Assembly (NCBI GenBank): GCA_014380425.1
Contig: JACMJX010000347.1
Coordinates: forward strand, 1-35,358
Origin: Chitinophagaceae bacterium
GTDB lineage: Bacteria > Bacteroidota > Bacteroidia > Chitinophagales > Chitinophagaceae
Length of the DNA: 35,358 nt
Direction of reading: 5' to 3'
Shown here: piece after piece, positions 5,088-14,278 of the stretch
Layout of the letters: each line of letters opens with the position of its first letter
Numbering within the stretch: the first letter of the stretch is position 1
The notes under the pieces: generated by a model
Seen by the model: the letters and a program-made list of their open reading frames with translations, nothing else
Databases searched by the model: none
Told to the model about the DNA's origin: nothing
Made by a program: the position numbers and the translations under genes

Positions 5088-6080
5088 TTACACTATTCGC
5101 CGCACCCGCTGCTCCATCATCATTAGATCTATCAATGCAAGTGCGGTGGCGGCTTCGAGAATAACAGGGGCGCGAAGCGCAACACAGAGATCGTGTCTGC
5201 CTTTGATGGAGAAGTCCTCCGTTTGGCCTGTTTCCCAGTTAAGGCTGTTCTGCTCTTTTGGAGTAGAGGCGGTCGGTTTGATGGATATGCGAAAAATGAG
5301 TTCGTTGCCATTCGTGATGCCACCGACGATTCCACCGGCATGGTTGGTGCGGGTTCTGCCTTCCATGTTTTCTATGGCATCGTTATGCTCGGTGCCGAAC
5401 ATTTTTGATGCTGCAAAGCCGCTTCCGAATTCAATACCTTTCACTGCGGGTATGGCAAATACGATATGTGCTATGATGGATTCTGCGGAGTCGAAGAACG
5501 GCTCGCCGAGGCTGGCGGGTAAACCATTAACGCGGCATTCTACGATGCCCCCAACAGAGTCCTTAGCGTCGATGGCACGCTGAAGGCCTATGTCTAAGTC
5601 TGCCTCACCGCCTATTTCCGTGACTGCTGCATGTATGCTAACACCGGGCATTAGCTTTTTGGCAATGGCGCCTGCGGCTACCAGCCCGGTAGTGAGCCGG
5701 GCGCTGAAATGACCACCGCCCCTGTAGTCCTCATGGCCGCCATATTTCTGGTGGGCCACCATGTCTGCATGTCCGGGCCGGGGGAAACTTCGCTGCTTTT
5801 CGTAGTCGCTGCTTCGTATATTATTATTTTCAAAGAAAATAGTTATGGGAGCGCCGGTCGTTTTACCATTGAATACACCACTCTTGATGAGAGGGTAATC
5901 CGCCTCCTGGCGGGGTGTGGTTCCTTTCTGTTTACCACCTTTTCTGCGTTCGAGATCCGGCAGCATGTCTGCATCTGATAAAACAAGGCCTGCCGGGCAA
6001 CCATCGATAACGATACCGACAGACTCGCCGTGCGACTCTCCGAAAATATGCACGCTGAAGATGCGGCCGAATGAGTTCAT
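5088..6080 (-). CDS. aroC: Chorismate synthase
   Basis: GRIFSVHIFGESHGESVGIVIDGCPAG, RPGHADMVAHQKYGGHEDYRGGGHFSARLT. Confidence 0.97.
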   Translation of the reverse strand: MNSFGRIFSVHIFGESHGESVGIVIDGCPAGLVLSDADMLPDLERRKGGKQKGTTPRQEADYPLIKSGVFNGKTTGAPITIFFENNNIRSSDYEKQRSFPRPGHADMVAHQKYGGHEDYRGGGHFSARLTTGLVAAGAIAKKLMPGVSIHAAVTEIGGEADLDIGLQRAIDAKDSVGGIVECRVNGLPASLGEPFFDSAESIIAHIVFAIPAVKGIEFGSGFAASKMFGTEHNDAIENMEGRTRTNHAGGIVGGITNGNELIFRISIKPTASTPKEQNSLNWETGQTEDFSIKGRHDLCVALRAPVILEAATALALIDLMMMEQRVRRIV

Positions 6081-6082
6081 AA

Positions 6083-7351
6083 CTATGCTTTATTTATGAT
6101 GGATCCTAATGACTGCAAGTGTTCAAAGAAATCGGGATATGATTTGTTGATGGCCTGCGCATCGTCAATGGCAGTAATTCCTTCCGCTTTAAGGGCAGCA
6201 ACGGCACATGCCATCGCGATGCGATGGTCGTGATGCGAATGTACAGACGCACCTCTTAAGCCCGTGCTGCCGTCGATGATCATGAGGTCATCCTGAAGAT
6301 CGATCTTTATGCCCATTTTACCAAACTCCTCCTGCAATGTAAGCGCCCTGTTGCTTTCCTTATGTGTGAGGCGGCTAGCACCTTGTATCACCGTTTTACC
6401 ATGGCAGTAAGCCGCCAGGGCTACGAGTGGAGGAAATAGATCTGGGCATTCCGTAGCATCAAAATGAAATGCTTTCAGTGCGCCCGGTGCCACTTCAATC
6501 TGCTCCGGCTGCACGGAAAGCACGGCACCGCATTGCATCAGTGCCTGCAGCACAGCCTTATCAGCCTGGGTAGAAAAGATATCCAGCCCCTTTACTACGA
6601 TTCCGCCGGCTATGGCACCTGCCACCAGCAGGAAAGAGGCACCACTCCAATCACCCTCTACCTTGTAAGATGTTGCTTTATAGCTGTTAGATTGCTTCAA
6701 AAAGCAGAAAGACTCATAATTATCGTTGACCACCTCTATGCCGAAATGTTGCATTACCTGCAGTGTAAGATCTATATAAGGCTTACTGGTAAGGTTATGT
6801 ACTCGAATGCAAACACCTTCGGCACCCGCTGCACCGTAAGCCATCAGCAGCCCTGTAAGAAACTGTGAACTGAGTGATCCATCCACTTCTATGTTGGCTG
6901 GCTTCAGGGGGCCTTTTATTCTGAGAGGTACTTTGCCCATGTTCGATTCAATTGCAATACCGAGAGATGGAAAAATTTTATTGAAGAACGACATGGGCCT
7001 TGTAACAAGACTGCCCGTGCCATTTATAACAATCTCGCGGCTGCTCAGTGCCGTAATAGGCGTAAACATCCGGATGCCCAGTCCGGATTCTCCGCAATTC
7101 AGTTCATCTGCAATGGGGTAAACGCCTTTACTCTTTACCGTGAGTGAACCATCGGCATTAGCGGTTACTAATGCACCCAGTTTTGTTATTACGTCGAGTG
7201 CGGCAAGATCGTCATTGCTTTTACCAGGTGATAGCAGTTGCGTGGTGCCTATAGACAATAATGCTGCTGCGCAGGCACGCTGCATCGAGCTTTTGGATGC
7301 AGGTGCCTGAATGGTGCCTGAAATGGACGATGGCTGTATTTGTACGATCAC
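6083..7351 (-). CDS. aroA: 3-phosphoshikimate 1-carboxyvinyltransferase (EPSP synthase)
   Basis: APASKSSMQRACAAALLS, LNCGESGLGIRMF, DHRIAMACAVAAL; GTG start directly abuts the aroB stop. Confidence 0.94.
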   Translation of the reverse strand: MIVQIQPSSISGTIQAPASKSSMQRACAAALLSIGTTQLLSPGKSNDDLAALDVITKLGALVTANADGSLTVKSKGVYPIADELNCGESGLGIRMFTPITALSSREIVINGTGSLVTRPMSFFNKIFPSLGIAIESNMGKVPLRIKGPLKPANIEVDGSLSSQFLTGLLMAYGAAGAEGVCIRVHNLTSKPYIDLTLQVMQHFGIEVVNDNYESFCFLKQSNSYKATSYKVEGDWSGASFLLVAGAIAGGIVVKGLDIFSTQADKAVLQALMQCGAVLSVQPEQIEVAPGALKAFHFDATECPDLFPPLVALAAYCHGKTVIQGASRLTHKESNRALTLQEEFGKMGIKIDLQDDLMIIDGSTGLRGASVHSHHDHRIAMACAVAALKAEGITAIDDAQAINKSYPDFFEHLQSLGSIINKA

Positions 7352-8377
7352 TTATAAAGCTTGAATGATTTGTTCTAATTGTATCATTGGTATGTTCGTT
7401 ACAGTTGCTTTTCCGATCTCTTCAAGCAACACGAAATTCATTCCCTGCCCGCTCCGCTTCTTATCCATCTTCAACACCTCGAACGCCTGCTGCTTATTGT
7501 ATTCCATAGCAATAGGCAGGTGGTATTGTTGCAGCAACCTGCTGATGCGTTCCGTTTGGGAAGCAGGGAGGCCTTTGATCTTTTCTGAAATAACAGCCGC
7601 AGCTACCATACCGATACTGATAGCATGGCCATGCAATAATTGATACTCGTTTTCAATGGCGTGGCCGAGGGTGTGTCCGAAATTAAGCAGTTTGCGTTCT
7701 CCCTGTTCGAATTCATCCTGCTCTACTATTTCCGATTTGATAACCACGTTTCTTTCGATGGTTTCTGCCAGCAAAGATTTGTTACTTCTAAAGTCTTTCA
7801 GCTGGTGCTTTTCGAGAAAGTCGAAGAGATGGGTATCTTTGATACAAGCGTGCTTGATGACTTCTGCGAAGCCGTTTACCCACTGTTCCCAAGGAAGAGT
7901 TTGAAGAAATGAATAGTCGTACAAGATAAATTCCGGCTGTCGGATGGTGCCCACCAGGTTTTTATAGATACCCACGTCGATCCCATTCTTTCCGCCCACC
8001 GCGGCATCCGTCTGTGCAAGAATAGTGGTTGGCACAAAGCCTACGCTGAGGCCACGCATATAGACAGCAGCAGCGTATCCAGCGATATCTGTTACAACAC
8101 CGCCGCCTACACCAATTATAAAAGTTTTTCTGTCTGCCTCATAACGGATTAGTTGCTGCATAATACTGTCGACCGTTGCCTGCTGTTTGTACTGCTCGCC
8201 AGCAGGAATCACTATTGTGCTATAACCAGCAAACTTATCTTGATGCAACCCATAAACATCAGCATCCGTAATGATGATGATCTTATCCCGGTGAACAATG
8301 TCGCCAATGGCAGACATGGTTCCATCCATATAACAGCTTACTTTTTTTCCGGAGAATGTGTACGTTAATGTTCTCAT
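7352..8377 (-). CDS. aroB: 3-dehydroquinate synthase
   Basis: GVGGGVVTDIAGYAAAVYMRGL, TTILAQTDAAVGGKNGIDVG, FAEVIKHACI, LNFGHTLGHAIE. Confidence 0.96.
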   Translation of the reverse strand: MRTLTYTFSGKKVSCYMDGTMSAIGDIVHRDKIIIITDADVYGLHQDKFAGYSTIVIPAGEQYKQQATVDSIMQQLIRYEADRKTFIIGVGGGVVTDIAGYAAAVYMRGLSVGFVPTTILAQTDAAVGGKNGIDVGIYKNLVGTIRQPEFILYDYSFLQTLPWEQWVNGFAEVIKHACIKDTHLFDFLEKHQLKDFRSNKSLLAETIERNVVIKSEIVEQDEFEQGERKLLNFGHTLGHAIENEYQLLHGHAISIGMVAAAVISEKIKGLPASQTERISRLLQQYHLPIAMEYNKQQAFEVLKMDKKRSGQGMNFVLLEEIGKATVTNIPMIQLEQIIQAL

Positions 8378-8382
8378 CCCGC

Positions 8383-9468
8383 CTAAGAATTCATGATCTT
8401 ATTCTGACGGTTGATACTTTCCATGTGAACCGCATCGAAGTATTTGGTGATGAATTCTTGACTGAGACCCAGCTTATCTCCTCGCTGGTAAGCTCTTTCG
8501 AGAATTTCATTCCAGCGGTTGGTTTGAAGGATAGTGATATTGTTTTCTTTTTTATACTGCCCGATCTTCTCGGCAATCTTCATACGCTGGCCGATGATCT
8601 GCATCAGTTCGTCATCAAGGTGGTTGATCTGCTGGCGCAGCTTTTCCAATGCTGCATTCAGTTCTTCCGACGTTTCTTCTTTTCTCCAGATAATGGTCTC
8701 CAGCATCTGTGCGAGACGCTCGGGGGTTACCTGTTGCTTGGCATCGCTCCAGGCATTATCGGGATCAATGTGTGTTTCTATGATCAGGCCGTCAAAATCC
8801 AGGTTGATAGCTTGTTGCGCTACGTCAAGCAGGATATCCCTGCGTCCGCAGATATGTGAAGGATCATTGATAAGCATGGTATCCGGAAACCGGCGCTTCA
8901 TTTCGATAGCCAGGTGCCACATGGGTGCATTACGGTATTCAGTGTTGCCATAAGAAGAAAAACCGCGGTGAATGAGACCGATCTGCTTAATACCTGCTTT
9001 GGCTACCCGCTCCATCGCACCGATCCACAGCTCAAGATCAGGATTTATAGGGTTTTTTATCAACACCGGTACATCTGCGCCCTTCAAAGCGTCCGCAACT
9101 TCCTGTACGCTGAACGGGTTAACAGTAGTACGTGCTCCGATCCATAGTACATCCACATCGAAGTGCAGTGCGTCCTCTACTTGCTTGGCAGTAGCCACTT
9201 CTATAGCTACCGGCAATCCACTTACTTTTCGTGCTTGTTGTAGCCAGGGAAGTCCTTTGGTTCCAATACCTTCAAAGCTGCCGGGTCTTGTACGCGGCTT
9301 CCATATACCGGCACGTAGAATATCCACTTTGCCCGTTTGAGCAATTCCTGTCGCTGTTTGCATCACCTGTTCTTCAGTTTCTGCGCTACAGGGCCCCGCT
9401 ATTATCAGGGGTCTCTTGTTCCATTTCTGCTGAACAAGATCTTTTGTTGTTGGTTCGGTTGCTTGCAT
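8383..9468 (-). CDS. Bifunctional DAHP synthase / chorismate mutase
   Basis: IIAGPCSAETEEQVMQTA, PVLIKNPINPDLELWIGA, INDPSHICGRRD plus C-terminal mutase-like LRQQINHLDDELMQIIGQRMKIAEKIGQYKK. Confidence 0.94.
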   Translation of the reverse strand: MQATEPTTKDLVQQKWNKRPLIIAGPCSAETEEQVMQTATGIAQTGKVDILRAGIWKPRTRPGSFEGIGTKGLPWLQQARKVSGLPVAIEVATAKQVEDALHFDVDVLWIGARTTVNPFSVQEVADALKGADVPVLIKNPINPDLELWIGAMERVAKAGIKQIGLIHRGFSSYGNTEYRNAPMWHLAIEMKRRFPDTMLINDPSHICGRRDILLDVAQQAINLDFDGLIIETHIDPDNAWSDAKQQVTPERLAQMLETIIWRKEETSEELNAALEKLRQQINHLDDELMQIIGQRMKIAEKIGQYKKENNITILQTNRWNEILERAYQRGDKLGLSQEFITKYFDAVHMESINRQNKIMNS

Positions 9469-9495
9469 TTATTATTAATTTTTCAATCCTGACTC

Positions 9496-11163
9496 TTACC
9501 TGCTATTAGCATCGTTCATTCGGATCCTTCTCCCCTTGTAAGTTTTGCCATCTACAGCAGAGATCATTTTGCTGGCGGACGATGCATCCACTTCTACCCA
9601 ACTATTCATCTCTTTCATGTCTATTCTGCCCAACACTTCTTTTTTCAGGTCGCTCATATCGAGAATAAACTGAAGGAAGCTGGCTTTATAAAAGCCGTCT
9701 TTCGTTCCAAGGTTTACGAACAGCTTGGTAAAGTTGCCATTTCCATTAAAGCTTCTGCCCTGGGTGTCTCTCACTTCACGAACCCTGCCATCTCTGGAAG
9801 TACTATCTCTATATTCCACCCGAGTTCTTCTGTCGTCACGCACGTTCAAGTCTTCTGCATTCTCGTAGTACTTAAGGAAGCGGTCGAATTCCATGGCGGC
9901 AACGCGCTTCAATACTTCTTCCTTGCTCATTTCGGCGAACTTTTCTTCCAGCATCGGCACATATGTTTCATAGTCGCCGTGGCTGATATCGGTTTGTATC
10001 AGTTTGTCCATAAAGTGAAAGAACTGCTTACGGCATACATCCTTGCCGGTCGGGATCTCCAGCTTATGAAACTGTATCTGGTTGATCTTTTCCAGTGCGC
10101 GCAGCTTAAATGTTTCACGGCTATGGATAATCGAGATACAAATGCCCGTTTTACCGGCACGCCCTGTTCTTCCACTCCGGTGTGTGTATACTTCCACATC
10201 ATCTGGCAGTTCAAAATTGATAACATGAGAAATGCCTTGTACATCGATCCCTCTTGCGGCAACGTCTGTTGCTATGAGCAGTTGCAGACTTTTATCCCTG
10301 AACTGCGACATTACCTTATCACGCTGGCCTTGGTTAAGGTCACCATGCAATGCGTCTATATCGTACCCTTCTCTGGTCAGTTTTTCAGATATATCCTGAG
10401 CGTCTGCTTTCGTGCGCGTAAAAATAATACCATACATTCCCGGGTTAAAGTCAATAATACGTTTCAGTGTTTCATAGCGATGCTGCGCACTACTGATGTA
10501 ATACTGGTGATCGATGCTTTTATTAGCGGTATTTACTTTACCTACCGTTACTTCCATCGGTTCTTTCATATACTTTTTGCTCACCCGGCGGATCTCTGGA
10601 GGCATTGTGGCGCTAAATAGCCAGGTGGCATCTCGTTCCGGTGTATTCTTCAGAATGAACTCTATATCATCCTGAAAGCCCATATTCAGCATTTCATCGG
10701 CTTCGTCGAGCACTACGTATTTTATCTTTTCAAGGTTGATGGCCTTTCGTTCTATAAGATCGATTAGCCTTCCTGGTGTTGCTACTACTATGTGCACGCC
10801 TCTTTTAAGGTCGCGGATTTGCATGGTAATAGACGTACCGCCGTAAACGGCTAGTACATGAATACCCGGCATGAACTTCTTGAACAATTCCACTTCATTC
10901 ACGATCTGCATACACAGTTCACGCGTTGGGCACACTACAAGCGCCTGCGGGTAGCGCTCCTTCGAATCGATCAACTGCAACAGCGGTATGCCAAATGCCG
11001 CTGTTTTTCCTGTGCCCGTCTGGGCCAGTCCAATAAAATCCTTGGTGCCGCTTAACAGCACGGGGATTGATTTTTCCTGTATTTGAGTTGGGTTCACAAA
11101 CCCCAACTCGTCGGTTGCCTGCACTAATCGCGGATCAATGCCCAACCCTTCAAATGTCATCAT
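9496..11163 (-). CDS. DEAD/DEAH-box RNA helicase with DbpA-like C-terminal RNA-binding domain
   Basis: AQTGTGKTAAFGIP, VLDEADEMLNMGF, SATMP, HRSGRTGRAG; C-terminal FVNLGTKDGFYKASFLQFI...GRRIRMNDA. Probable start MMTFEGLG. Confidence 0.95.
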   Translation of the reverse strand: MMTFEGLGIDPRLVQATDELGFVNPTQIQEKSIPVLLSGTKDFIGLAQTGTGKTAAFGIPLLQLIDSKERYPQALVVCPTRELCMQIVNEVELFKKFMPGIHVLAVYGGTSITMQIRDLKRGVHIVVATPGRLIDLIERKAINLEKIKYVVLDEADEMLNMGFQDDIEFILKNTPERDATWLFSATMPPEIRRVSKKYMKEPMEVTVGKVNTANKSIDHQYYISSAQHRYETLKRIIDFNPGMYGIIFTRTKADAQDISEKLTREGYDIDALHGDLNQGQRDKVMSQFRDKSLQLLIATDVAARGIDVQGISHVINFELPDDVEVYTHRSGRTGRAGKTGICISIIHSRETFKLRALEKINQIQFHKLEIPTGKDVCRKQFFHFMDKLIQTDISHGDYETYVPMLEEKFAEMSKEEVLKRVAAMEFDRFLKYYENAEDLNVRDDRRTRVEYRDSTSRDGRVREVRDTQGRSFNGNGNFTKLFVNLGTKDGFYKASFLQFILDMSDLKKEVLGRIDMKEMNSWVEVDASSASKMISAVDGKTYKGRRIRMNDANSR

Positions 11164-11239
11164 AAATAGTAAAAATTTGCGCAAAGGTACTATAATAATG
11201 TCATCCCGTCAGTTTTGGGTCAAAACATGTCAACGGATG

Positions 11240-12079
11240 CTATTTTATAATCCTTTTAATTTTATTGGCATTCTCTATCAGTTCCTTTAAATACTCGTAA
11301 TTCTCCTTCTCCAGGCAGCTTTTGAATTTACGCAGTTGAGAGATATGCTCATTCAGCACATCGAGAATATTTTCCTTGTTCTGCATAAAAATCGGCACCC
11401 ACATGGCAGGATTGCTTTTGGCCAGTCTTACAGTGCTCTCAAAGCCACCACTTGCGAGTTCGAAGATGGCTTGGTCTTCCCGTTCTTTTTCCAACACGGT
11501 GTTTGCCAGCGCAAAAGAAGTAATGTGAGAGATATGGCTCACATAAGCTGCATGAAGATCATGCGCCATTGCATCCATGTATAGAAGATGCATGCCTATT
11601 GCCCGGTACATGTTCTCTACCATTTCTATCGCTCCAGGATGGCTTTCTTCTTTATTGCAGATCACCACGGCTTTATTTGCAAAAGCACCTCGCACCGCCG
11701 CTTCTGGACCGCTGTACTCAGTTCCCCACATTGGGTGAGTGGCAACGAAACGTTTATGCATCGGGTGGCTTCGTACCAGCTCGCAAACGGCTTGCTTGGT
11801 AGAGCCCACGTCCATCAGCACCTGGTGCTGTATCCTGTTCAGCAAAGGCAGGATAATTTCGCCAACAGCATTCACCGGGATAGCTATAATAACAAGATCT
11901 GCCTGGTCTAAGGCAGGCTCCCAGTCCATCACCTCATCTACCAGGCCCAGGCTCAATGCTTTCTGCAGGTGCTCCTTGTTAGCGTCTACACCAATAATAC
12001 GGGAAGCAAAACCCTTTTCCCGCATAGCCAGTGCCATAGATCCGCCAATCAAACCGATACCTATTATCGTGACTGTCAT
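11240..12079 (-). CDS. tyrA: Prephenate dehydrogenase
   Basis: ITIIGIGLIGGSMALAMREKG Rossmann motif, DVGSTKQAV, HPMWGTEYSGPEAA; ATGA overlap with the upstream aminotransferase stop. Confidence 0.92.
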   Translation of the reverse strand: MTVTIIGIGLIGGSMALAMREKGFASRIIGVDANKEHLQKALSLGLVDEVMDWEPALDQADLVIIAIPVNAVGEIILPLLNRIQHQVLMDVGSTKQAVCELVRSHPMHKRFVATHPMWGTEYSGPEAAVRGAFANKAVVICNKEESHPGAIEMVENMYRAIGMHLLYMDAMAHDLHAAYVSHISHITSFALANTVLEKEREDQAIFELASGGFESTVRLAKSNPAMWVPIFMQNKENILDVLNEHISQLRKFKSCLEKENYEYLKELIENANKIKRIIK

Positions 12080-13248
12080 ATTGCTGTTATTAAAGCGAGC
12101 GCCTTTTCAAGAACTTCTTTTTTCTGACAGAGACTCACTCTCACATACCCGTTACCGTTACTGCCAAAAATACCGCCTGGAGTTATGAATACATTTTTAT
12201 CATAAAGAACCTGATCGCTTAGGGTAAAACCATCATTATAGCGGTCTGGAATGGAAGCCCATACAAACAAACCTGCCTGAGTGTTATTGAAGCTGCAGCC
12301 GAGCGCCTCCAGTATCCTGTACACTACTTGCCTGCGTTCATGATACGTTACGTTCAGCTCATCATACCATTCCCTGCTAAGGGATAGCGCTTTAGCGGCA
12401 GCCAACTGCACGGGCAGAAACATGCCACTGTCCATATTACTCTTAAAACGAAGTACTTCGTCTATGCGTTCCTTGGCTGCAGCCATAATACCCACACGCC
12501 AGCCTGCCATGTTCACCGACTTACTAAGTGAATTCAGTTCTATTGCAATATCTTTCGCACCATCTACGGAAAGAAGACTTGCAGGTTTGTCATTTAGTAT
12601 AAAACTATATGGATTGTCGTGACATATAAGGATACTATGTCTCTTGCCAAACGCTACAATTCTTTCAAACAGCTGCTTTGAGGGTAGCTTGCCGGTAGGC
12701 ATGTGTGGATAATTGATCCACATTATCTTTACCCTACTTAGGTCCATCTTTTCCAATGCATCGAAATCAGGCTCCCAGTTGCCGTCTTCCTTCAACTCAT
12801 AATCTATACAACTGCCTCCGGCAAGCTGCACTGCACTTCGATACGTGGGATAACCCGGATTCGGTATCAGGGCCCGATCGCCCTCGTCTAGGTAAGTCAT
12901 GCACACATGCATGATTCCTTCCTTGGAACCGATCAGTGGAAGGATCTCCGTATCGGGATTCAGCTGCACACCATACCAGGATTCATAAAAGCTGGCAATA
13001 GCATTGCGCAATACCGGCGAGCCTTTATAGCTTTGGTATGCATGTACATTCGGCTTTATACTTTCTTCATTCAAAACCTTAATTACATCCGGATGCGGCG
13101 GCAGATCCGGACTTCCGATTCCCAGATTGATGATCTGTTTTCCGGCTTTATTCAAAGCGTCTATCTCACGAAGCTTCTGTGAGAAATAATATTCCCCGAT
13201 CCCTTCCAGGCGTTTAGATGTAGCTATCATTAATATTTCTTTAGTCAT
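12076..13248 (-). CDS. Class I/II PLP-dependent aminotransferase
   Basis: INLGIGSPDLPPHPDV, NPGYPTYRSAV, LNSLSKSVNMAGWRVG (PLP lysine). Exact start uncertain (13230-13254); the 13290 start would overlap pheA. Confidence 0.9.
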   Translation of the reverse strand: MTKEILMIATSKRLEGIGEYYFSQKLREIDALNKAGKQIINLGIGSPDLPPHPDVIKVLNEESIKPNVHAYQSYKGSPVLRNAIASFYESWYGVQLNPDTEILPLIGSKEGIMHVCMTYLDEGDRALIPNPGYPTYRSAVQLAGGSCIDYELKEDGNWEPDFDALEKMDLSRVKIMWINYPHMPTGKLPSKQLFERIVAFGKRHSILICHDNPYSFILNDKPASLLSVDGAKDIAIELNSLSKSVNMAGWRVGIMAAAKERIDEVLRFKSNMDSGMFLPVQLAAAKALSLSREWYDELNVTYHERRQVVYRILEALGCSFNNTQAGLFVWASIPDRYNDGFTLSDQVLYDKNVFITPGGIFGSNGNGYVRVSLCQKKEVLEKALALITAI

Positions 13249-13258
13249 AAACATAGGA

Positions 13259-14089
13259 TCACACTGTTTCCCCTTTTTTATAAATACCATACACCCTCAC
13301 TTCTTCTGTCATACTTTTTATAGCCTCCATTACCGTATTAAACTGGTCTAGCGAATCGAATTCCATATCCGCGTGAAATGAATACTTCCAGTCGCTACCT
13401 GGTATCGGGAAGCTTTGCAACTTGCTTAGGTTGATTCCCCCATCGGCAATTTTCGTTAATACCTTGGCAAGACTACCCCTTGAATGATCGGTATTGAAGT
13501 TAACAGAAGCTTTGTTGGCGTCATGGAGCTTATCCGACTGTTCCTCAGGTTGCAGTATAAGAAAACGCGTATAATTATTCCGCATCGTGTGAATATTGGG
13601 AGCGATTATCTCGAGGTTAAAGAGATCTGCAGCCAGCTTACTGGCAATAGCAGCTATATGGCTGCTTTTTTGCTCTTGAATACGCTTTGCGCTTAACGCG
13701 GTATCTTCTGTTTCTACCAGTTTCCAGTTGTACTTGTCAAGGTATTCCGTGCATTGCAACAGCGCCATGTAATGCGAATGCACTTCACGTATATCTTCCA
13801 GTTTCACTCCCGGGTTCACGAGCAGGTTCTGTTTGATCTGCAGGTAAACTTCGCCAGTTATAACCAGGCTACTTTTCTGAAGCAATGTATAATTAGGTAG
13901 TATGCTCCCGGCGATGGAATTTTCTATTGCCATTACTCCACCGTCACTTTCTTTTCTGTTGGCGGCTATCTTTATTACGTCTTTGAATGTAGCACAGGGC
14001 AGTACTTCCACATGCTTTCCGAAAAACTGCCTTGCAGCAACCTGGTGAAAACTTCCTTCATAACCTTGTATGGATACTTTCTTATTCAT
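13259..14089 (-). CDS. pheA: Prephenate dehydratase
   Basis: VSIQGYEGSFHQVAARQFFG, GVMAIENSIAGSILPNYTLL, NNYTRFLIL and ACT-domain LAKVLTKIADGGINLSKLQSFPIPGSDWKYSFHADME. Confidence 0.94.
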   Translation of the reverse strand: MNKKVSIQGYEGSFHQVAARQFFGKHVEVLPCATFKDVIKIAANRKESDGGVMAIENSIAGSILPNYTLLQKSSLVITGEVYLQIKQNLLVNPGVKLEDIREVHSHYMALLQCTEYLDKYNWKLVETEDTALSAKRIQEQKSSHIAAIASKLAADLFNLEIIAPNIHTMRNNYTRFLILQPEEQSDKLHDANKASVNFNTDHSRGSLAKVLTKIADGGINLSKLQSFPIPGSDWKYSFHADMEFDSLDQFNTVMEAIKSMTEEVRVYGIYKKGETV

Positions 14090-14095
14090 AGTCGT

Positions 14096-14131
14096 AAAAA
14101 AAAGTCCCCCGGGTCTGCCGGGGGACTTTTT
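14096..14131 (-). terminator. Intrinsic terminator of the pheA attenuator
   Basis: Minus strand AAAAAGTCCCCCGG-CAGAC-CCGGGGGACTTTTT(TTT): perfect 14-bp stem, 5-nt loop, run of T; ends 6 nt upstream of pheA ATG. Confidence 0.9.
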
Positions 14132-14158
14132 ATGTTGAGTTTTTAGTTCTTAGCTGTT

Positions 14159-14239
14159 TCAACAAAAGCTCCCCGTTCCACTGATAAAGTAGAAAAAGAA
14201 GTTAAAATAAAATCGTGTATTTGTTTTTGTTGAAGTCAT
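14159..14239 (-). CDS. Phe/Tyr-rich leader peptide of the pheA attenuator (26 aa)
   Basis: ATG ACT TCA ACA AAA ACA AAT ACA CGA TTT TAT TTT AAC TTC TTT TTC TAC TTT ATC AGT GGA ACG GGG AGC TTT TGT TGA = MTSTKTNTRFYFNFFFYFISGTGSFC*; residues 10-18 have six Phe and two Tyr. Immediately upstream of a terminator and pheA. Below the length cutoff of the ORF track. Confidence 0.85.
   Translation of the reverse strand: MTSTKTNTRFYFNFFFYFISGTGSFC
14164..14174 (-). promoter_or_regulatory. Candidate antiterminator segment
   Basis: Minus strand GGGGAGCTTTT can pair with AAAAGTCCCC in the terminator's 5' arm (10 bp, one bulged G). Confidence 0.65.
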
Positions 14240-14247
14240 TTATGATT

Positions 14248-14278
14248 CAAATGTAGAAAGTAATTAGAATAAAACAAA
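14248..14278 (-). promoter_or_regulatory. Bacteroidota-type promoter for the phe/aro operon
   Basis: Minus strand TTTG - 19 nt - TACATTTG matches the TTTG / TAnnTTTG consensus of the Bacteroidetes primary sigma factor; 8 nt upstream of the leader ATG. Confidence 0.65.

Follow-up and report, generated by a model that had tools for sequence, protein, structure and literature searches.

The locus studied here raises the question of whether the short region that precedes pheA, the gene of prephenate dehydratase, is a transcription attenuator and, if so, which amino acids it senses and which genes depend on it. The window, i.e., the whole stretch of DNA that was analysed, comprises 35,358 nucleotides of a Chitinophagaceae genome. 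An earlier note, made from its sequence, had placed a phenylalanine attenuator upstream of pheA. The reading favored here, to which a probability of about 0.9 is assigned, is that of a ribosome-mediated (classical) attenuator that would sense charged tRNA-Phe and tRNA-Tyr and control the operon pheA-aspC-tyrA-(helicase)-aroG/CM-aroB-aroA-aroC. The open reading frame (ORF), promoter motif, terminator, and antiterminator of the leader, with their conservation and covariation, were read from the sequence and from its comparison with relatives, and the geometry of ribosome stalling was modelled.

According to this reading, transcription would start a few nucleotides 5′ of the leader AUG, and the ribosome would load on a nearly leaderless 5′ end. 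With an ample supply of Phe and Tyr, the ribosome would clear the aromatic codons and cover segment 2 in the tail of the ORF; the terminator (helix 3:4) would then form and the RNA polymerase would halt just 5′ of pheA. When Phe or Tyr is short, the ribosome would stall on the aromatic codons and leave segment 2 free to pair with segment 3 once this has emerged, which would preclude the terminator and allow transcription of the operon. The synthesis of aromatic amino acids would in this way be restricted to times of shortage.

Organization of the Presumed Operon and its Leader

After pheA, the presumed operon continues with an aminotransferase (aspC), tyrA, a DEAD-box helicase, a DAHP synthase/chorismate mutase fusion (aroG/CM), aroB, aroA, and aroC. 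The earlier note had put all eight genes under the attenuator; their common direction, close spacing, and conserved order (Table 1) agree with this, and the control itself we infer. The helicase gene, located inside the aro operon (9496-11184, minus strand), encodes a DbpA RNA-binding domain. It holds the same position in three other loci (L148, L152, and L153), lies just upstream of pheA in another (L150), and was not detected in the loci L149 and L151.

The elements of the leader described in the earlier note were all found on the minus strand where it had placed them: the promoter-like TTTG-N19-TACATTTG, the ORF of 26 codons, in which a stretch of nine residues contains six Phe and two Tyr, the sequence GGGGAGCUUUU in the final codons of this ORF (14174-14164), and the perfect 14-bp stem with a U-run, followed by pheA. 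The aromatic block occupies residues 10-18 of the leader peptide, the ninth residue being Asn. The terminator is very strong (-23.8 kcal/mol), and the pheA ATG, at 14089, is nine nt 3′ of its stem. The whole leader folds better than any of 200 shuffled versions (z = -5.5). A chance ORF in AT-rich DNA was ruled out by the shuffling of pheA upstream regions, as an F/Y-rich ORF with a stem and a T-run after it arose in none of 1580 dinucleotide-shuffled sequences.

Table 1. Positions of the predicted leader elements and of the presumed operon in the window.
Feature	Position	Strand	Basis
-33 element TTTG	14278-14275	minus	sequence; 19 nt 5′ of the -7 element
-7 element TACATTTG	14255-14248	minus	match to the Bacteroidetes sigma-A consensus TAnnTTTG
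Predicted leader 5′ UTR, about 4 nt	14240-14243	minus	start site deduced from the motif; TTTG-ATG gap 8 nt
Leader ORF MTSTKTNTRFYFNFFFYFISGTGSFC	14239-14159	minus	26 codons plus UGA; homologous F/Y-rich ORF in 81/81 related loci
Regulatory codons F10 Y F N F F F Y F18	14186-14212	minus	sequence; inside the modelled permissive stall zone
Candidate segment 1 UUCAACAAAA	14225-14234	minus	pairs with UUUUGUUGAA of segment 2; recoding test at family level, weaker for the window alone
Segment 2 CGGGGAGCUUUUGUUGA	14159-14175	minus	ORF tail, overlaps stop codon; 16-bp duplex with segment 3 (-21.0 kcal/mol), covariation in relatives
Segment 3 UCAACAUAAAAAGUCCCCCG	14119-14138	minus	terminator 5′ arm plus preceding conserved UCAACAUAA
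Intrinsic terminator (3:4), 14-bp stem and U-run	14096-14131	minus	sequence, calculated fold, covariation; 81/81 relatives; arms 14131-14118 and 14112-14099, loop CAGAC, U-run 14103-14096
pheA, prephenate dehydratase	13259-14089	minus	Pfam PF00800, 191 bits
Rest of presumed operon	5088-13290	minus	Pfam; gaps of at most 55 nt; order conserved in relatives

Conservation in Related Loci and the Amino Acids Probably Sensed

The leader was compared with 82 related loci, 80 of them pheA loci from a scan of species genomes, mostly of Chitinophagaceae, and two from a genome search; one locus had no upstream sequence and was left out. The proposal of an attenuator depended on the persistence of both the F/Y-rich ORF and the alternative pairing in close relatives. 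In all 81 assessed loci, pheA is preceded by a short ORF with a series of codons for the amino acids that the operon makes and, between this ORF and the first gene, by an intrinsic terminator; the alternative pairing was calculated in 80. These counts are not independent trials, since two loci (L002 and L048) belong to the same genome and the sequences are related. The record of these two loci, JADCRZ010000042.1, is titled Williamsia sp. (an actinobacterium) and carries a Chitinophagaceae-type pheA locus; its leader sequence matches a genome in the genus of the window, and it is probably a mislabelled MAG.

The attenuator proposed in the earlier note is supported by these comparisons, but most likely not as a sensor of Phe alone. 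Tyr codons recur as regularly as Phe codons, in keeping with an operon for both. Given that Phe, Tyr, and their common precursor are all products of this operon, the likeliest reading is that both amino acids are sensed, and we infer a response to each of them. The same attenuator might sense Phe only, the Tyr codons being neutral single-step neighbors of Phe codons. Phe does exceed Tyr in the ten-residue block (means of 5.2 and 3.6), and TTT/TAT and TTC/TAC are one base apart; against this stand the two or more Tyr codons in the block of every one of the 81 leaders, often in a strictly alternating FYFYFYF, and the presence of tyrA and the common pathway in the operon, which make sensing of Phe alone unlikely.

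Alternative Helices and their Covariation

In the earlier note, part of the ORF tail was paired with the 5′ arm of the terminator. The calculations agree with this pairing, although its extent had been drawn too short: it covers about 16 bp and includes UCAACA. The best calculated 2:3 duplex in the window joins CGGGG (14175-14171) and GCUUUUGUUGA (14169-14159) with UCAACA...AAAGU.CCCCG (14138-14119). Across the family, the consensus reads CCGGGA..GCUUUUGUUGA for the ORF tail and UCAACAUAAgAnUCCCGG for the stretch just 5′ of and inside the terminator arm. In the only locus without the calculated antiterminator (L019), the stop codon of the ORF comes earlier, and the complementary segment is found directly 3′ of it.

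The compensatory stem changes that the earlier note had suggested looking for in relatives were found in both alternative helices; the calculated antiterminator is mutually exclusive with the terminator. In an alignment of 78 sequences, double-changed cells of the antiterminator number 49, compared to 17.6 in shuffles; in the proposed register its cells are paired in 84.6% of cases, but in at most 50.3% after a slide by 1 to 3 columns. For the terminator, the double-changed cells are 39 vs. 5.1 in shuffles. Examples are the replacement of UGUUGA/UCAACA by UGUUAA/UUAACA or by UGCUGA/UCAGCA. Moreover, in 30 more distant leaders the own segments pair at -17.2 kcal/mol, compared to -10.9 kcal/mol when partners are swapped between species (p = 9e-10). 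When applied to the whole-leader alignment, RNAalifold returned the terminator only in part, as alternative helices and helices shifted in the alignment conflict with each other; for this reason, the tests of pairing used named structures and duplex swaps.

The first codons of the leader (in many species KAY, encoded by AAAGCAUAC) probably form a segment 1, whose pairing with segment 2 would give a protector or pause hairpin. At the family level, the natural 1:2 duplexes reach -16.6 kcal/mol vs. -12.9 kcal/mol for synonymous recodings (p = 9e-15, with species that are not independent), and diverged tails favor the heads of their own leaders (p = 2e-4 and 2e-5). The outcome of this test varied with the part of the leader taken: little co-variation was detected on a shorter cut, and codons 1-11 gave a positive result. 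In the window alone segment 1 is weak (-10.2 vs. -8.8 kcal/mol for synonymous recodings), and in a model of the nascent RNA helix 2:3 outcompetes 1:2, so that termination without translation is not assured and the role of segment 1 is a tentative one.

Modelled Position of the Ribosome

The effect of a stalled ribosome was calculated with a masking model in which about 28 nt around the A-site codon are hidden and the choice of helix is computed before segment 4 is made. In the window, this model forms helix 2:3 fully at stalls on codons 1-18 (15.7 expected pairs), the last of which, F18, closes the aromatic block; pairing falls at codon 19 and is completely lost (0 pairs) at codon 23 and all later positions up to the stop. 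Over 80 leaders, the mean number of 2:3 pairs is 16.4 at the position two codons ahead of the last aromatic codon and 13.9 at that codon itself, and then 7.6, 4.2, and 3.4 at the next three. The edge of the permissive zone thus coincides with the last of the regulatory codons. In the model, then, a stall frees segment 2 and completion of the ORF covers it, in agreement with the proposal of the earlier note that a ribosome stalled at F14-F16 would leave the antiterminator segment free and one at UGA would cover it. In relatives with a longer ORF tail, segment 2 is only partly covered once the ribosome has reached the stop; over all leaders, a mean of 7.8 pairs is left. For the complete leader at equilibrium, the terminator wins whatever the position of the ribosome, and the decision must therefore be kinetic.

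This last result, together with the strength of the terminator, would also suit a terminator with constitutive partial readthrough, preceded by an ORF that is translated but is no sensor. Such an arrangement is very improbable, as a conserved and covarying antiterminator and a codon block placed at the stall boundary would have no reason to persist in it. About equally improbable is that the product of the leader ORF is a small aromatic peptide with a function of its own, the hairpin merely ending its transcript. A role in trans has been proposed for the peptide peTrpL (PMC7298713), and the F/Y block is well conserved at the protein level; however, Phe and Tyr interchange freely and the RNA pairing covaries, and the tail nucleotides that give PGMLLL in some species give GSFC or GCFC and then a stop codon in others. 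As the tail RNA is kept while the reading frame shifts, there it is the RNA, and not the peptide, that is under selection. A functional peptide would, in addition, be compatible with attenuation. Slightly less probable still is translational control by occlusion of the pheA start. The stem does end just 7-10 nt 5′ of pheA in the window and many relatives, but a U-run follows it throughout, and in many others 90-180 nt lie between the hairpin and pheA; such control could act on top of attenuation.

Promoter Motif and Predicted Nearly Leaderless Start

An exact TAnnTTTG motif occurs within 45 nt 5′ of the leader start in 71 of 80 leaders, and in the full set of 80 if one mismatch is allowed; the corresponding numbers in upstream control windows are 1 and 16. 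In 73 of the 80, this motif is separated from the start codon by 4-10 nt. Given that the motif spans -12 to -5 (PMC9723704), the predicted leader 5′ UTR is 0-6 nt. The leader mRNA is therefore likely to be nearly leaderless, with a start predicted from the motif. In Flavobacterium psychrophilum, only 5.5% of the mRNAs have been described as leaderless (PMC9723704). The motif-to-start gap is larger in most of the other families sampled, which suggests that the nearly leaderless start is peculiar to the family of the window. Bacteroidetes lack Shine–Dalgarno initiation. The leader, presumably translated, would be a clean test system for transcription–translation coupling in Bacteroidetes and for initiation on nearly leaderless mRNA.

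Distribution in Bacteroidia

Two sets of more distant loci place the leader largely within one class. In a phylum-wide draw, an F/Y-rich leader precedes pheA in 30 of 34 loci of the class of the window, nearly all with a clear terminator, and in one of 26 loci outside it. A further 19 loci came from a second draw, made within the class, and 11 of these have an F/Y-rich leader (three of the 11 without a terminator by the criterion used); in these class draws, several Bacteroidia families have pheA without the leader. A covariance model (R2) of the leader gave one strong match per genome in 36 of the 61 family genomes searched, that of the window included, and 19 of its best 20 matches are directly 5′ of pheA. 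The comparisons indicate that the attenuator is conserved across much of the class Bacteroidia, and the covariance model is ready for use. That a two-amino-acid (Phe or Tyr) attenuator on a nearly leaderless mRNA is ancestral to much of this class is a tentative extension, to which somewhat less than even odds are given; if true, ribosome and RNA polymerase would be closely coupled at such leaders without Shine–Dalgarno initiation. In the within-class draw, 78 of the 109 sampled genomes gave no prephenate dehydratase match, possibly owing to widespread Phe auxotrophy or to another enzyme.

Relation to Known Elements

At the Rfam gathering threshold, the window leader has no match, and a described riboswitch or T-box at this place is thereby ruled out. 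The best match among 4227 families is the enteric pheA leader (RF01859, Phe_leader; 40.3 bits, E = 1.3e-5); the score is below the gathering cut-off of 55, and the leader is thus not filed in this family. Both share a Phe-rich leader ORF, a terminator directly before pheA, and an alternative pairing. By contrast, the window leader has mixed Phe/Tyr codons, a segment 2 inside the ORF tail, a Bacteroidetes promoter, and almost no 5′ UTR, and would control an operon for Phe, Tyr, and the common pathway. Bacteroid-trp (RF01692), a structured cis-regulatory element of Bacteroidetes, is listed for trp (PMC2864571), whereas the window leader belongs to phe; its covariance model gave no match at the leader, even at a relaxed threshold. 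The leaderless trpL attenuator of Sinorhizobium meliloti also has its leader ORF at or next to the transcript 5′ end (PMC7298713), but it is alphaproteobacterial and responds to Trp, and the start in the window is predicted.

An earlier example is a structured 5′ element upstream of F. psychrophilum pheA, reported without an Rfam hit along with clues for leader peptide attenuation of amino-acid operons (PMC9723704). It is of the same class and in the same place as the window element; as far as the main text of that report covers it, neither a leader sequence nor a switching model is given, and conservation is stated for Flavobacteriaceae only. Among the families sampled here, f5 has an F/Y leader before pheA, and one f5 member carries a Flavo-1 RNA. 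In the literature that was searched, no published pheA attenuator of Chitinophagaceae was found. According to a 2010 survey, leader-peptide attenuation was not known outside Proteobacteria and Actinobacteria before that survey added Firmicutes (PMC2965389). The type of mechanism is already known, and the Phe/Tyr leader is uncatalogued in Rfam. The sequence comparisons give good support for the window element as a genuine, well-conserved attenuator of the classical type; its predicted, nearly leaderless start would be specific to the family, and it probably senses both amino acids. It would provide a documented Phe/Tyr attenuator for a large bacterial class in which leader-peptide attenuation is barely described.

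Other Candidate Regulatory Elements in the Same Genome

Candidate leaders precede three further amino-acid loci of this genome. Before hisG (locus L143, 750-788), a candidate His leader, MKLYTHIHHHYR, is accompanied by a TATTTTTG promoter motif and a terminator. Before trpE (locus L144, minus strand, about 3030-2910), a candidate Trp leader, MIQSIQNIQWWWHTNLKRGW, and a terminator were found, with a sub-threshold Trp_leader match (31.6 bits vs. 41). Before ilvD (locus L145, 1180-1335), a candidate Ile/Val leader ends in FIVVVVIIIIPALHGGVNV and is followed by a terminator. The his, trp, and ilv candidates suggest that attenuation is a general strategy in this genome. The same genome has a SAM riboswitch (77 bits) at the locus of a homoserine dehydrogenase gene (L147, 2593-2714), and the window itself contains a DUF805 RNA motif (RF03081, 65.4 bits) at 1256-1322 of the plus strand, upstream of an ORF starting at 1296/1899.
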